The position numbers and the translations under genes were made by a program. DNA of 5,856 nucleotides, taken from assembly GCA_001303705.1 (NCBI GenBank), contig LJUI01000155.1, positions 1 to 5,856 of the forward strand, in the 5' to 3' direction. Shown here piece by piece: positions 1 to 5,848 of this stretch (position 1 is the first letter of the stretch; each line of letters opens with the position of its first letter). The stretch is from a candidate division TA06 bacterium SM23_40 (GTDB lineage: Bacteria > LJUI01 > SM1-40). Under the pieces are notes generated by a model. The model saw only the letters and a list, made by a program, of their open reading frames with translations. It made no database searches and was not told the DNA's origin.

Positions 1-2987
1 CTCTTGCCCCCTCCTCTGTCGAGGCTCTTCTTCAGGAGGGAGAGATCGTGGCCGGGGATCTCGGGCATCGCGTGCCCGCCGTCGTCGATGCCGGCCTGGC
101 CGGGGGGGGGCAGGGAGTCGTTGTGCCGTTGAGGGACGATGCACGGGCGAGGGGACTGCTTGTCATATCGGCCGGCGGGCTGGGCAGGCTCACAGGGCGG
201 GAAGAGCGTGTACTCAGGATGCTCGGGGCCCAGGCTGCCCGGTTTCTTGCGGATGTGGAGCGTTCGAATATCGCTCAGGAGGCGTGGAGGCTCCTTGCGC
301 GGACCCTGCAGCAGCGAGAGCAGGCCGACCGTCTGGCGGACGTGATGGCCGCATGCACAGACTGGAGCCGCGCACTCGAGGAGGCTCTCAGAAGTGTGAT
401 GGGAGTATTCTCTGCTCCCGCAGGAGGCATCCTCGTCAAGGACGTGGTCAACTCCCTGGCCTCATATGAAGTTGTGCACGGCCTCTGGGCAGAGAGTCGG
501 GAGATAGCCAGCTTCCCGCTCGGCGAGGAGGGTGCGTCGGCCGGTTTCCTGGGTGCGCGGCCTGCGGCCTGTCTGATCGACATCGAGAGGCTTGCGAGGC
601 TGGCAGGAACCGAGATGGAGTTTGCGCAGGCAGCTCTCGCTACCGGGTTGCGCGCGATGATCTCTGTGCCGCTGGGGAGCGGGGAGGGACATCTCGGAGC
701 CCTGCATCTGTTCTGGCGAGAGCCAGGCCGCGCGGAGCATGTCGATCGGGCGGCGCTGACTCAGGCTGCACGCTGGCTCCGCCTCGCTCTGACGAGGGTG
801 AGGGTCGACCGCGATCTCGGACGACGGCTCGAGGGGCTGGCGGTGCTCGACCACTTCAGTCAGGATGTCGAAACGCCGCATGCGCTCGATGATGTACTGA
901 CTGGCCTTCTGACTGCTTCGGTCCAGATCGTAGGGTGTCGCAGCGCGTGTGCCCTTGTCTGGGAGGAGGAGCGAAAACAGCTCGTGCTTCATTCGAGTGT
1001 GGGGCCTCTGTTTGCGGACATCGGTGAGGGCCGGGCGTTCCCCCACGGCGGTGTATCGCCCGCGATGCTCGCTTCTCTCGATGCTCACGGGCCCGTCTTC
1101 TTCCCGGACACGGAGTCAGCGGAGCCGTGGCTGAGTCTCATACCGTTCGAGGAGCTACCTGCGGGCGCGTTCATGCCGATTGTCACGCGGGGTAGTCTCG
1201 TCGCGATCGTTTGCCTTGGGGAATGTGGCCGTTCTCAGTTTGATGATGTTTGTCTCGATCTTCTGCGGTCGCTGTCGAGGCATGCCGCCGCCGCAACAGA
1301 GCACGTCAGACTCTTCGATGAGGTGCGAGAACGGGAGAGCGAGCTGGAGGACACAGTTCGGCGTCTCGATGAGTCGATTAAAGAGCAGAAGCGGGCGAAT
1401 ATCGAGCTCTCTGTTCTCCACAACCTCAGCGTCGCCATCCAATCGACGATCCGACTCGATGAGATTCTGGGCATAGTCGTAGAGGGCGTGCGGCAAAGTC
1501 TCGGTTTCAAGCGCGTACTGCTCAGTCTGCTCGACGACGTGAGTATGCGCCTGGAGCGCAAGGCGGCTGCCGGCGTGGCCGGGGAAGAGTTTGAAGACAT
1601 ACGGCGCGTCACGGTGCCTGTAGAGGACCTGCACACGTTGCTACGGGAGGAGTTCCGGATCTCGAACTCCTATCTGATCACTCACACGGACGCCGAGCGC
1701 GCTCAGATCCGTCGATATATCGAGCGATATGGGTACGCAGGCCCGGTCGATGATGTCGCCCCCGAATCTCACGAAGAGGGCAGATGGCATCCAGGGAATA
1801 TATTCGTCGTTCCTCTGCGTTCGAAGGACGGCCGGCTGCTCGGGATCATGTCAGTCGATAGTCCGATCGACGGTCAGATCCCGAGCGAGGAGAGAGTACG
1901 ATCCCTGGAAGCATTCGCCAGCTCTGCAACTCTGGCGATCGAGAATGCGAAAATGTACGAAGATGCGAGCCGTATGCTCTCAGGACTCTCAGGTGTGTCT
2001 GAGATATCGAGTGCGATCGGGATGATCCGGCATCTGGAGGAGCTCCTCGAGGAGGTGGTTGAGATCATCCACCGGAAGTTCGCCTACCTCAACGTGGCAT
2101 TGCTGCTTGTCGACGCAGAGAGGGATGAGCTCTATGTCGCCGCCTCGAAGGGATACGAGGAGACAGACCTCGCCGATCTGCGCCTCAGGGTCGGAAAGGA
2201 TGGAGTGACGGGGTGGGTCGCGCATACGGGACAAGCTCAACTCATCCCCGATACTCGGAGAGAGCCACGGTACGTGGGGGATAAATCGGGGCCGAAGTCG
2301 GAGATTGCGGTGCCGCTCCTCACAAAGAGCGGAATCATCGGGGTGCTCGATGTCGAAAGGGAAGGCATTCATTCGCTGCGTGAATACGATCTCAGTCTGC
2401 TCGGAGCTCTTTCCACTCACATCTCAGTCGCCATCGAGAACGCGAAGCTATATGAGCAGACGGAGAGGCTCGCTGTCACTGATGCGATGACGGGTCTCTA
2501 TAATTACCGGTATCTCCAGGAGCGGCTCGCGGATGAGGTCGAACGTGCCGAACGACGCGGTCAGCGGCTCTGTCTGATGATGGCCGATATCGATAACTTC
2601 AAGACATACAACGATACCTTTGGACATCTCCGCGGTGACGAAGTCCTGCGCGATATGGCCTTGTTGTTGCAGGAAAACGTCAGACAGATGGATGTCGTGA
2701 CGAGATATGGCGGCGATGAATTCATGATCATACTTCCCGAGACCGATCGAGATGAAGCTCTGTCCATCGCTGAACGCATCCGTCTCCGTGTCGGGAGCTG
2801 GGGACTGCAGGCAGGTCTCGGGCCGTCGGCAGGGGAGATCGGCGTGAGCATCGGCATCGCCGTCTATCCGGATGATGCGGAGAGTGCCGACCTTCTGATC
2901 GATAAGGTGGACAAGGCATTGTACCGGGCCAAGGAGTTCAGGGAGGTCGGAATAAGCTTTCTTTACACTGATGGGGGAAAAGGGTGA
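1..2987 (+). CDS. Multi-GAF diguanylate cyclase (GGDEF), 5' end cut by window
   Basis: Predicted cytoplasmic diguanylate cyclase making c-di-GMP from two GTP, controlled by stacked GAF sensor domains. Residues are numbered from the GTG codon at 48. Residues 1-72 look like the last half of a GAF domain. Further GAF-like domains lie at about 90-250, 263-420, 452-635 and 643-800, with a charged coiled-coil linker at about 421-452. GAF 4 and 5 end in similar signalling helices (IENAKMYE, IENAKLYE). The GGDEF domain spans about 805-970 and is intact: metal ligands D847 and D890, substrate residues N855 and D864, signature GGDEF at 888-892, and the inhibitory I-site RQMD at 879-882. No membrane segment is visible. 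The frame is open to base 1 and the upstream codons (ending QEGEIVAGDL) read as GAF sequence, so I extend the call to the edge; GTG at 48 is the alternative start. The ligands of the GAF domains cannot be told. The stop overlaps the kinase start. Confidence 0.88.
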   Translation, partial: LAPSSVEALLQEGEIVAGDLGHRVPAVVDAGLAGGGQGVVVPLRDDARARGLLVISAGGLGRLTGREERVLRMLGAQAARFLADVERSNIAQEAWRLLARTLQQREQADRLADVMAACTDWSRALEEALRSVMGVFSAPAGGILVKDVVNSLASYEVVHGLWAESREIASFPLGEEGASAGFLGARPAACLIDIERLARLAGTEMEFAQAALATGLRAMISVPLGSGEGHLGALHLFWREPGRAEHVDRAALTQAARWLRLALTRVRVDRDLGRRLEGLAVLDHFSQDVETPHALDDVLTGLLTASVQIVGCRSACALVWEEERKQLVLHSSVGPLFADIGEGRAFPHGGVSPAMLASLDAHGPVFFPDTESAEPWLSLIPFEELPAGAFMPIVTRGSLVAIVCLGECGRSQFDDVCLDLLRSLSRHAAAATEHVRLFDEVRERESELEDTVRRLDESIKEQKRANIELSVLHNLSVAIQSTIRLDEILGIVVEGVRQSLGFKRVLLSLLDDVSMRLERKAAAGVAGEEFEDIRRVTVPVEDLHTLLREEFRISNSYLITHTDAERAQIRRYIERYGYAGPVDDVAPESHEEGRWHPGNIFVVPLRSKDGRLLGIMSVDSPIDGQIPSEERVRSLEAFASSATLAIENAKMYEDASRMLSGLSGVSEISSAIGMIRHLEELLEEVVEIIHRKFAYLNVALLLVDAERDELYVAASKGYEETDLADLRLRVGKDGVTGWVAHTGQAQLIPDTRREPRYVGDKSGPKSEIAVPLLTKSGIIGVLDVEREGIHSLREYDLSLLGALSTHISVAIENAKLYEQTERLAVTDAMTGLYNYRYLQERLADEVERAERRGQRLCLMMADIDNFKTYNDTFGHLRGDEVLRDMALLLQENVRQMDVVTRYGGDEFMIILPETDRDEALSIAERIRLRVGSWGLQAGLGPSAGEIGVSIGIAVYPDDAESADLLIDKVDKALYRAKEFREVGISFLYTDGGKG
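34..50 (+). promoter_or_regulatory. Shine-Dalgarno-like AGGAGG before GTG codon 48
   Basis: AGGAGG at 34-39 sits eight bases before the GTG at 48, an ideal ribosome-binding arrangement. It would support a start at 48, giving 979 residues. Against this, a start here leaves only half a GAF domain, and the codons before it are open and GAF-like. The purine run can equally be explained by the codons for Gln-Glu-Gly-Glu. I favour an internal coincidence, or at most a secondary start. Confidence 0.3.
102..110 (+). repeat. Nine-G homopolymer inside the GAF-GGDEF gene
   Basis: Nine consecutive G bases encode Gly-Gly-Gly just before the conserved GAF strand VVVPLRD. It is the longest single-base run I noticed in the window. 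Loss of one G would bring a TGA at 130-132 into frame and cut the protein short. It is a possible slippage site or sequencing-error site; the present length keeps the GAF reading frame intact. Confidence 0.8.
2984..2987 (+). other. GTGA stop-start overlap
   Basis: The kinase GTG (2984-2986) and the cyclase TGA (2985-2987) share bases. This arrangement normally reflects translational coupling, in which ribosomes finishing the first gene restart on the second. I saw no credible separate promoter in the end of the cyclase gene. Confidence 0.8.
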
Positions 2988-4267
2988 GGCGTATCGGGCG
3001 CTTGGGAGGGAGACGCGGCCTCGGACTCTTGGGCACCCCGCGCCTGCTCAAGGGTTACCTGTTTCTCGGTGCGGTCATACTGGCTGCGGCCTCGCTTCTC
3101 TACACGAACCGCCTGGCGAGACGGCTCGAGCATGCTCAGCAGACGACGAGTATGGTCTTCGCCAGGGTGGCTGCAGATCTCAGCTTTTCCGCGGCTGAGA
3201 GTGCAACTCCTGACGTCTACCTTCCGCTCGTCCGCCGCATCGATTTCCCGGTCATCTTCACAGATATGAACGGTGTGCCCCGCGCGTGGCGAAACGTTGC
3301 AATCGATCCGCGCGCCGTGGATAATGAAGAGCTGGAGAGGGTCGATCCTAACGTGCCTCCGTCGGGGGCGGTGGCGGAGCTGATGGAGATCGTCGCCCGG
3401 CTCGACAGAGAACGCGAGCCAATTCCCCTGTACGCGCCTGATTCGACGATAACAGGATACCTGCACTACGGGGTCTCTCCGATCGTACGGGAGCTCTCCT
3501 GGGTCCCCTGGCTGCAGATTCTGCTCGTCACGCTCTTCATCGTCATCGGGTTCATCGGGTTTCTGACTATCCGGCGTGGAGAGGAGAACTCGATCTGGGT
3601 CGGCCTGGCCAAGGAGACGGCTCATCAGCTCAGCACCCCTCTCAGCGCCCTGCTCGGCTGGCTGGAGCTGGTGAAGGAAAAGACTCGTGCGTTCGATCTC
3701 GGGAGGCCGGAAGCGGAGAGTATTGAGCGGGTCACTCAACAGATGGCCAGCGATGTCGAGAGAATGCAACGGATCGTGACGCGCTTCTCAAAGATCGGAA
3801 GCCCCCCCAAGCCGGAGTGGGAAAATCTGGAGACGATTCTCCACAAAACGGTCGAATACTTCGGACAGCGACTCCCTCGTCTGGGGAAGGAGATATCGAT
3901 CGTCGAGAATTACACTGAGTTGCCGGAAGTCTGCGTCGACGGTGAGTTGCTGAGCTGGGCCCTGGAGAATGTGATCAAGAATTCACTCGATGCGATCGCA
4001 GGCCGAAAAGGGACGATATGGGTCTCCGCACGGCGTGATGGAGATCATGTCCGGATTCTGATCCGGGACAGTGGGAGGGGTATGTCCCACGAGGAGAGTC
4101 GCCGCGTTTTCTTGCCGGGGTACAGCACAAAGCACAGCGGATGGGGGCTCGGTCTGCCCCTGGCGAAGCGAATCGTGGAGCAGTATCACGGAGGGCGAAT
4201 CTACCTGCAGGAGACGAGGCTTGGACGCGGGTCGACGTTCGCCATCGATTTGCCCGTGCTTAGCTGA
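2984..4267 (+). CDS. Membrane sensor histidine kinase, likely partner of the PorX-like regulator
   Basis: Predicted inner-membrane sensor histidine kinase of 427 residues that autophosphorylates on His214 and passes the phosphate to a receiver, most likely the downstream PorX-like protein. A basic N-terminus (RR and K residues in 1-23) precedes transmembrane helix 1 at about 24-41. An extracytoplasmic region of about 130 residues (42-173) contains a PAS/Cache-like stretch, FPVIFTDMNGVPRAWRN, at 88-104. Helix 2 is at about 174-195. The H-box ETAHQLSTPLSALLGW (211-226) follows after fewer than 20 residues, leaving no room for a HAMP or cytoplasmic PAS domain. The HATPase domain shows the N-box (N329, N333), G1 box DSGRGM (362-367), F376 and G2 box GWGLGL (386-391), so it looks active. 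The GTG start overlaps the upstream stop as GTGA, pointing to translational coupling; a G-rich run at 2973-2977 is a weak ribosome site. It resembles the FCB-group kinases that include PorY-like proteins, but I cannot assign porY with certainty. Confidence 0.92.
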   Translation: MRRIGRLGGRRGLGLLGTPRLLKGYLFLGAVILAAASLLYTNRLARRLEHAQQTTSMVFARVAADLSFSAAESATPDVYLPLVRRIDFPVIFTDMNGVPRAWRNVAIDPRAVDNEELERVDPNVPPSGAVAELMEIVARLDREREPIPLYAPDSTITGYLHYGVSPIVRELSWVPWLQILLVTLFIVIGFIGFLTIRRGEENSIWVGLAKETAHQLSTPLSALLGWLELVKEKTRAFDLGRPEAESIERVTQQMASDVERMQRIVTRFSKIGSPPKPEWENLETILHKTVEYFGQRLPRLGKEISIVENYTELPEVCVDGELLSWALENVIKNSLDAIAGRKGTIWVSARRDGDHVRILIRDSGRGMSHEESRRVFLPGYSTKHSGWGLGLPLAKRIVEQYHGGRIYLQETRLGRGSTFAIDLPVLS

Positions 4268-4291
4268 TTAGCAACCGATGTCGGACTGCCG
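4268..4291 (+). other. 24-base in-frame spacer between kinase and PorX-like genes
   Basis: This short gap holds no clear Shine-Dalgarno sequence, promoter or terminator. The bases CCGATGTCGG form a small palindrome whose loop would be too tight for a useful hairpin. The gap is exactly eight sense codons (Leu-Ala-Thr-Asp-Val-Gly-Leu-Pro) in the same frame as both neighbours, so only the TGA at 4265-4267 separates the two reading frames. The genes are almost certainly co-transcribed. Confidence 0.75.
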
Positions 4292-5848
4292 ATGAAAGAG
4301 CAACGAGAAATTCTCTGGGTTGATGATGAGATAGAGCTTCTGCGCTCGCACATCATATTTCTTGAGCAACGGCAATACCGCGTCACACCGGTCAGCAACG
4401 GTGACGATGCGGTCAGCATGCTCAAGGAACACAACTTCGATCTCGTCCTGCTCGATCAGATGATGCCGGGGCGTGACGGCCTGTCGACACTCGTCGAAAT
4501 AAAGGAGATCGACTCGAACGTCCCTGTCGTCATGGTGACGAAGTCAGAGGCCGAGGAGTTGATGGATCATGCGATCGTAAGGCAGGTCGATGACTACCTC
4601 GTGAAGCCCCTCAATCCGCACCAGATCATCTCTGTCTGCAAGCGGATCCTCGACGCACAGGATATTCAGGAGAAGCAACTGGGAGAGGTCTATGTCGCTG
4701 AGATGAACCGGCTCAAGAGATCCCCTGCCGTGGATTGGCGGGGGTGGGTCGAGATCCATCAGAAACTCTCGGACTGGGATATCCGCCTCGAGCGGTTCAG
4801 AGACATGGGGATTCAGTCGCTCCAGGAGGAGGCGAGGCAGGAAGCGAATGCCTCGTTCGGGCGCTTCGTCACAGATCGCTACCGGGATTGGATCGAAGGC
4901 GGAGATGCTCCGTTGCTCTCCGTTCAGCTGATCCGAGATCGTATTCTCCCGGAGTTGGAGCGGTCCGAGCAGGTGATCTTCGTCGTTTTGGATTGCATGC
5001 GGCTCGATCAGTGGCTCGCCATTGAGCCGCTTATCCGCGACTACTATGACTTAACGAAGGGTTTCTATTACTCGATTCTGCCCACGGCCACTCCGTACGC
5101 GCGAAACGGGATATTCAGCGGACTATTTCCCTCCGAGATCGCACGGGCATTCCCTCAGTATTGGATCGAGCAGCACGAGGAGGGAAGCAAGAATCGATTC
5201 GAGAACGAGCTACTCGAGGCGCATCTGGCGCGCCTGCGTCCGAGGTCCTCTCAGATCCACAGGTATATCAAGATACTGAGTGCGGACGATGTCCAGGCGA
5301 TGCGAAAGCGAATGGATGTGTTGTTCAGTCAGCCGCTAACGGTCATCGTCGTGAACTTCATGGACATCCTGGCGCACGCTCGATCAGAGTCAGAAGTCCT
5401 CCAGGAGATCGCTCCCGATGAGAGCGGATTCCGCAGCTTGACGAGGACATGGTTCCAGCATTCTGTTCTTTTCGAAGTGCTGAAGGTGCTCGCGCACAGG
5501 CCCTGCACCGTGGTGCTCACCACAGACCACGGGAGCATCTGTGGGCGAAGAGCCACGAAGGTCTTTGGGGGGAGAGAGATATCCAGGAATCTGCGCTACA
5601 AGTTCGGTCACAATCTACGGTGTGATCAACGTCACGCGCTCTATATCCGTAATCCTCAGGAGTACAAGTTGCCGCGCGAGAGCGCAACCAAGCGCTATGT
5701 GATAGCCAAAGAGGATTACTACTTCGTCTACCCAACTCACTACCATGAGTATAGGCGCCAATATCGGGATACGTTTCAGCATGGTGGGATCTCTCTCGAG
5801 GAGATGGTGCTTCCGATCGCAATCCTGCATCCGAAACTGATCTCCTAG
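4292..5848 (+). CDS. porX: PorX-like response regulator: receiver plus PglZ/alkaline-phosphatase-superfamily domain
   Basis: Response regulator of 518 residues with the full PorX layout. The receiver domain (about 5-120) has the acid pair D11/D12, phospho-acceptor D55 in LVLLDQMMPG, T83 and K105 in LVKP. A helical middle region spans about 125-215. The PglZ domain (about 225-515) carries what look like all two-zinc ligands: D234 in VVLDCMRLDQW, nucleophile T267 in PTATPYARN, D358 and H362 in NFMDILAH, D412 and H413 in TTDHGS, and H497 in FQHGG. In Bacteroidota PorX regulates type IX secretion genes together with PorY and a SigP-type sigma factor, and purified PorX has been reported to cleave cyclic and linear oligonucleotides. 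Here it directly follows a kinase, its probable phosphodonor. ATG at 4292 is the first good start and places the receiver strand ILWVDDE normally, though no Shine-Dalgarno sequence is clear. Family membership is firm; the output in this organism (secretion control, nucleotide cleavage or both) is inferred. Confidence 0.93.
   Translation: MKEQREILWVDDEIELLRSHIIFLEQRQYRVTPVSNGDDAVSMLKEHNFDLVLLDQMMPGRDGLSTLVEIKEIDSNVPVVMVTKSEAEELMDHAIVRQVDDYLVKPLNPHQIISVCKRILDAQDIQEKQLGEVYVAEMNRLKRSPAVDWRGWVEIHQKLSDWDIRLERFRDMGIQSLQEEARQEANASFGRFVTDRYRDWIEGGDAPLLSVQLIRDRILPELERSEQVIFVVLDCMRLDQWLAIEPLIRDYYDLTKGFYYSILPTATPYARNGIFSGLFPSEIARAFPQYWIEQHEEGSKNRFENELLEAHLARLRPRSSQIHRYIKILSADDVQAMRKRMDVLFSQPLTVIVVNFMDILAHARSESEVLQEIAPDESGFRSLTRTWFQHSVLFEVLKVLAHRPCTVVLTTDHGSICGRRATKVFGGREISRNLRYKFGHNLRCDQRHALYIRNPQEYKLPRESATKRYVIAKEDYYFVYPTHYHEYRRQYRDTFQHGGISLEEMVLPIAILHPKLIS

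Follow-up and report, generated by a model that had tools for sequence, protein, structure and literature searches.

Does a gene for a predicted diguanylate cyclase that lies directly before a histidine kinase gene and porX mark a working tie between c-di-GMP and PorX signalling, or is the arrangement a local accident? The stretch of DNA analysed here, referred to as the window, is an entire contig (C127; 5,856 bases) within a draft genome of 2,883,088 bases (189 contigs, 89.8% complete), so that neither upstream nor downstream genes can be read. Nothing in the GC content of the window (0.592, against 0.602 for 196 kb of its own genome) suggests that the contig is misplaced. Among the genomes compared, this one alone represents its phylum.

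Gene content and organization of the window

The window contains three genes, all on the + strand, encoding a GGDEF protein, a histidine kinase and PorX, with the following features:

3..2987, + strand: multi-GAF diguanylate cyclase gene (predicted), 5′ end missing, 994 aa readable (open frame; Pfam GAF_2/GAF and GGDEF)
2472..2936, + strand: GGDEF domain (PF00990, about 157-161.8 bits)
~2682-2693, + strand: I-site RQMD (motif reading)
~2709-2723, + strand: GGDEF motif (motif reading)
2984..4267, + strand: sensor histidine kinase, predicted PorX partner, with about two membrane helices flanking a periplasmic domain, HisKA with H214, and HATPase_c (Pfam; motifs; kinase family)
4292..5848, + strand: PorX, receiver plus predicted PglZ/alkaline-phosphatase-like phosphodiesterase (NF052313; alignment with F. 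johnsoniae PorX)
4310..4633, + strand: receiver domain, phospho-acceptor D55 at ~4454-4456 (PF00072, 86.8 bits; alignment)
4967..5548, + strand: PglZ domain match (PF08665; residue mapping)

The readable part of the first gene encodes four to five GAF domains and a single intact GGDEF domain, in which the DIDNFK, I-site RQMD and GGDEF motifs are all preserved, and the protein is on this basis predicted to be a diguanylate cyclase. The sequence-only reading of this DNA had called the cyclase complete, which holds for the domain and not for the gene. The reading frame is already open at base 1, and the first GAF match, truncated where the contig starts, begins at profile position 59; the gene therefore extends beyond its readable part. 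No significant overlap was found between the ends of the window and any other contig, and the inspected contigs of the same genome carry neither a 3′-cut cyclase fragment nor an adjoining HD-GYP gene.

The second gene begins with GTG and encodes a kinase with H, N, G1 and G2 boxes that is 35-45% identical to 38 kinases located at porX. An AlphaFold model based on an alignment of 39 kinases (mean pLDDT 84.7) predicts a long N-terminal helix, an alpha/beta domain at about residues 80-171, a second long helix and a catalytic core. Its adjacency to porX and its membership in a conserved kinase family suggest that this protein is the PorX partner. The tight spacing noted previously was confirmed: the cyclase gene, ending at 2987, overlaps the kinase gene, starting at 2984, by four bases (GTGA), and porX begins 24 bases past the kinase stop (4267 to 4292). 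A promoter/terminator scan of the window gave weak consensus matches only and no terminator-like site between the three genes, whose spacing points to a single transcript.

PorX and type IX secretion

The product of the third gene matches the NCBIfam equivalog NF052313 with 664.3 bits (cut-off 300) over residues 6-515 of 518. The receiver residues D11, D12, D55, T83 and K105 are conserved in the alignment. Zinc-binding and catalytic residues D234, T267, D358, H362, D412 and H413 lie in or beside the PglZ match, and H497 lies downstream of it, at about 5780; together these provide counterparts for seven of the seven residues named for PorX in the literature (D237, T271, D360, H364, D414, H415 and H499; PMC11320123). 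The auxiliary phosphate-binding residues R275, K329 and N357 are likewise conserved. The earlier description of a receiver-PglZ protein with full catalytic ligands is thus borne out, and by its sequence the protein is a true PorX.

It is the only PglZ protein in its genome, which also encodes a translocon protein of the SprA family (504.6 bits over the frame, against a cut-off of 200) and contains 39 matches to Por_Secre_tail, the sorting tail. Given the SprA-like protein and these tails, the PorX of the window very probably operates with a type IX secretion system.

The window can be compared with the PorX/PorY two-component system of Porphyromonas gingivalis and Flavobacterium johnsoniae. 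The window shares with it a PorX that is 41% identical over its full length to that of F. johnsoniae and retains all key residues, type IX secretion in the genome, and a histidine kinase partner, assigned here by adjacency and kinase family. The two differ in that kinase and porX adjoin in the window, whereas the P. gingivalis genes are unlinked by their locus numbers (porX, PGN_1019; porY, PGN_2001; PMC4800418), and in that the window operon additionally carries a GGDEF cyclase.

porX neighbourhoods across FCB phyla

Scanning one genome per species yielded 80 named PorX loci with identities of 45-55%. They come from Zixibacteria, Latescibacterota, Eisenbacteria, KSB1, Calditrichota, Ignavibacteria, Bacteroidota and further groups. 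The view that PorX is known mainly from Bacteroidota, where GGDEF proteins are sparse, does not describe this distribution: PorX is widespread in the first five of these groups and in others, and a search of 37 such genomes showed GGDEF domains in 36. A relative of the window kinase is encoded within 1 kb upstream of porX at 36 of the 80 loci. Kinase-porX pairs are ordinary in candidate FCB phyla.

The usual order in these phyla (Zixibacteria, Eisenbacteria and others) is serS-kinase-porX-tsaE-tsaB, set among housekeeping genes and found also at L180, L181 and L183. This locus has in common with the window the kinase family, PorX and the order of the two genes, and differs in having seryl-tRNA synthetase before the kinase, where the window has the cyclase. 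Housekeeping surroundings with serS before kinase-porX recur at L002, L008, L009, L012, L024 and many others, and in several FCB candidate phyla porX is followed there by tsaE, tsaB, a short gene, and accD-like and folC/mur-ligase-like genes. At the Ignavibacteria-type loci L055, L065, L066, L067, L075 and L081, the kinase's place directly before porX is taken by a gene of very large size (about 2,200-2,370 aa when it is complete).

A GGDEF profile run over all frames of the 80 loci gave two matches, one at L020, upstream of the kinase, and one at L021, over 3 kb downstream from porX. Among the 27 kinase-porX loci at which 3 kb or more can be read before the kinase, L020 was the only one with a GGDEF gene upstream of the kinase, which makes the GGDEF-kinase-porX order exceptional across FCB phyla. 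The absence of such a gene at the other 26 of 26 loci, and the presence of serS as the usual neighbour, lend some weight to the explanation that the cyclase of the window is a passenger, lying upstream with no functional tie while kinase and PorX regulate type IX secretion as they do elsewhere. The overlap of four bases between cyclase and kinase genes argues against this explanation, as does the conservation of the arrangement described below, and we consider it rather unlikely.

A conserved gene string in Candidatus Edwardsbacteria

Locus L020 belongs to a genome (G074) of the phylum Candidatus Edwardsbacteria, as does L037 (genome G084). PorX is encoded in nine of ten genomes of this phylum, and gene order was read from the DNA upstream of each porX. 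Seven genomes (G074, G097, G096, G100, G101, G098 and G099) carry the string HD-GYP-GGDEF-kinase-porX on one strand. In an eighth (G103), GGDEF-kinase-porX is present and the contig start falls inside the GGDEF gene, and in the ninth (G084), HD-GYP and GGDEF genes end one contig while kinase and porX begin another, an arrangement compatible with the string. HD-GYP, multi-GAF GGDEF, kinase and porX genes thus stand in line in every Edwardsbacteria genome that can be read.

The string opens with a multi-PAS HD-GYP gene, followed by the gene for a multi-GAF GGDEF protein of 1,411-1,900 aa. A TPR gene lies between cyclase and kinase at L020 and is absent from the other Edwardsbacteria operons read, in which these two genes are separated by 4 to about 150 bases. 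The HD-GYP motifs (HDIGK, HHE..DG.GYP) are intact in seven of seven proteins, and GGEEF together with the R..D inhibitory site is present in nine of nine cyclases. Because the cyclases are only 50-85% identical to one another, the string has outlasted much divergence within the phylum.

The genomic link between GGDEF genes and PorX is therefore real and is kept in at least one further phylum. The first of the two outcomes named earlier as refuting the proposal, a GGDEF gene beside porX in no related genome, is not what the survey showed: the link is present throughout the readable Edwardsbacteria. The proposal is upheld in the form of a gene string conserved in a second phylum, to which an HD-GYP enzyme is added, and its extension across FCB phyla fails at the 26 other readable loci. 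Chance adjacency as the full explanation was set aside after this survey. Retention of the string in all readable Edwardsbacteria genomes, despite cyclases that differ at up to half of their residues, also weighs against a passenger cyclase. In the literature collection searched, no paper links PorX to a GGDEF gene.

Relationship between the window and the Edwardsbacteria string

The window matches the Edwardsbacteria-type string in having its GGDEF gene immediately ahead of the kinase and porX genes and on their strand. In both, kinase and porX follow immediately, or almost so, on a multi-GAF GGDEF gene; the Edwardsbacteria string differs in its multi-PAS HD-GYP gene at the front, a position that falls beyond the contig edge of the window, in its longer cyclases, and in the TPR gene at L020.

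Among all GGDEF proteins compared, the best matches of the window cyclase are the Edwardsbacteria cyclases, and the best match of the L020 cyclase among those of the window's genome is in turn the window cyclase. This reciprocity is a further point against a passenger cyclase. In the best kinase tree, the window kinase joins the Edwardsbacteria kinases with weak support (79/44). The PorX tree gives no resolution of the position of the window protein, and in the cyclase tree the window groups weakly with a cyclase of genome G059 that is not linked to porX; a grouping of the window and Edwardsbacteria cyclases is not rejected by the AU test (p 0.14). On these trees, common descent of the linked genes is neither established nor rejected, and the shared linkage could possibly reflect common descent, transfer, or two separate origins.

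The PorX active site and its possible nucleotide substrates

The sequence-only reading had proposed a self-contained circuit. Profile searches of the window's genome gave nine GGDEF matches (eight besides that of the window), eight HD_5 (HD-GYP-like) matches and no EAL domain, so c-di-GMP turnover exists outside the window's operon; with eight other GGDEF and eight HD-GYP-like domains at hand, a self-contained circuit is unlikely.

The proposed circuit, in which kinase-activated PorX hydrolyses c-di-GMP or its linear product pGpG and thereby ends the signal of the neighbouring cyclase, would with the Edwardsbacteria HD-GYP protein amount to a full nucleotide route from GGDEF through HD-GYP to PorX. 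Conceivably, PorX itself might cut c-di-GMP or pGpG in the cell, by analogy with other PorX proteins in the literature. An inactive mutant of P. gingivalis PorX was crystallized with pGpG (PDB 7PVK; PMC11320123, PMC10951265), and PorX is reported to hydrolyse cyclic and linear oligonucleotides (PMC12839542). The conservation of R275, K329 and N357 in the window protein and of an Edwardsbacteria operon with both c-di-GMP enzymes is consistent with such a route. On the other side, F. johnsoniae PorX T271V showed no pGpG density in the same kind of experiment, PorX catalysis is dispensable for P. gingivalis secretion, and the substrates are described as oligoadenylates (PMC11320123).

Across 102 PorX sequences, moreover, the mapped catalytic and phosphate-binding residues hardly vary, irrespective of a GGDEF gene in the vicinity. 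A distinct active site for GGDEF-linked PorX was considered and rejected, as the mapped residues do not set these proteins apart and the single pocket position that varies does so in every group. Since linked and unlinked PorX are alike in this respect, the sequence gives no sign of specialization, a result that tells against hydrolysis of the neighbouring cyclase's nucleotide and counts in favour of a passenger cyclase. Overall, termination of the cyclase signal by PorX seems distinctly improbable. Slightly more doubtful still is the narrower proposal that PorX would complete, as its final enzyme, a c-di-GMP cycle encoded by the operon, in which the cyclase makes the dinucleotide, the HD-GYP enzyme opens it and kinase-activated PorX removes pGpG; if true, the PglZ domain of PorX would gain a physiological substrate, and the cycle would be coupled to type IX secretion.

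A proposed role for the GGDEF-kinase-porX operon

The reading that we favour, and hold to be probable, is that the kinase and PorX regulate type IX secretion and that the multi-GAF cyclase has joined their operon, so that c-di-GMP and secretion are coordinated. Counting against it are the trees, which do not demonstrate a shared ancestry of the linkage, and the many further c-di-GMP enzymes of the genome. In this uncultured FCB-type bacterium, the kinase-PorX pair would govern type IX secretion, the kinase sensing an envelope signal and phosphorylating PorX, through which secretion would be controlled. With a cytoplasmic multi-GAF diguanylate cyclase as a member of the kinase-porX operon, c-di-GMP production would be made together with the secretion regulator. 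The level of c-di-GMP may be set in response to internal signals via GAF/PAS arrays, by the cyclase and, in Edwardsbacteria, by the HD-GYP phosphodiesterase as well, and the c-di-GMP and PorX outputs could then be coordinated on surface attachment and secretion.

Work on PG_0686 of P. gingivalis, a reportedly unusual diguanylate cyclase, separately hints at a connection of c-di-GMP with type IX secretion: in the mutant strain FLL361, secretion genes were reported to be down 3- to 7-fold (PMC10101095). That protein resembles the window's cyclase in the reported connection of c-di-GMP synthesis to type IX secretion, and differs in that the passages cited from PMC10101095 do not describe it as adjoining porX. 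The Edwardsbacteria string and the window's operon suggest that c-di-GMP and PorX signalling work together, and that type IX secretion can be connected to c-di-GMP in bacteria other than Bacteroidota. A phylum-wide string of c-di-GMP synthase, phosphodiesterase, kinase and PorX also offers a specific, testable candidate for the nucleotide signal, if any, on which the PglZ domain acts in cells.

Other GAF and GGDEF genes

Three tandem GAF-GGDEF genes lie at about 10100-13700 of contig C83 in genome G000 (L116); GGEEF is present in the first, the motifs of the other two are degenerate, and the last of the three carries a long lysine/alanine-rich tail at its end. GGDEF matches also occur in pairs, 0.4-0.8 kb apart, in G080 (C82), G082 (C127) and G059 (C155). 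Very large TPR/GAF proteins of more than 1,600 aa are encoded on contigs C4 (L172) and C147 (L173) of G000, the latter combining protein kinase, AAA, TPR, GAF and sigma-54 activator domains.
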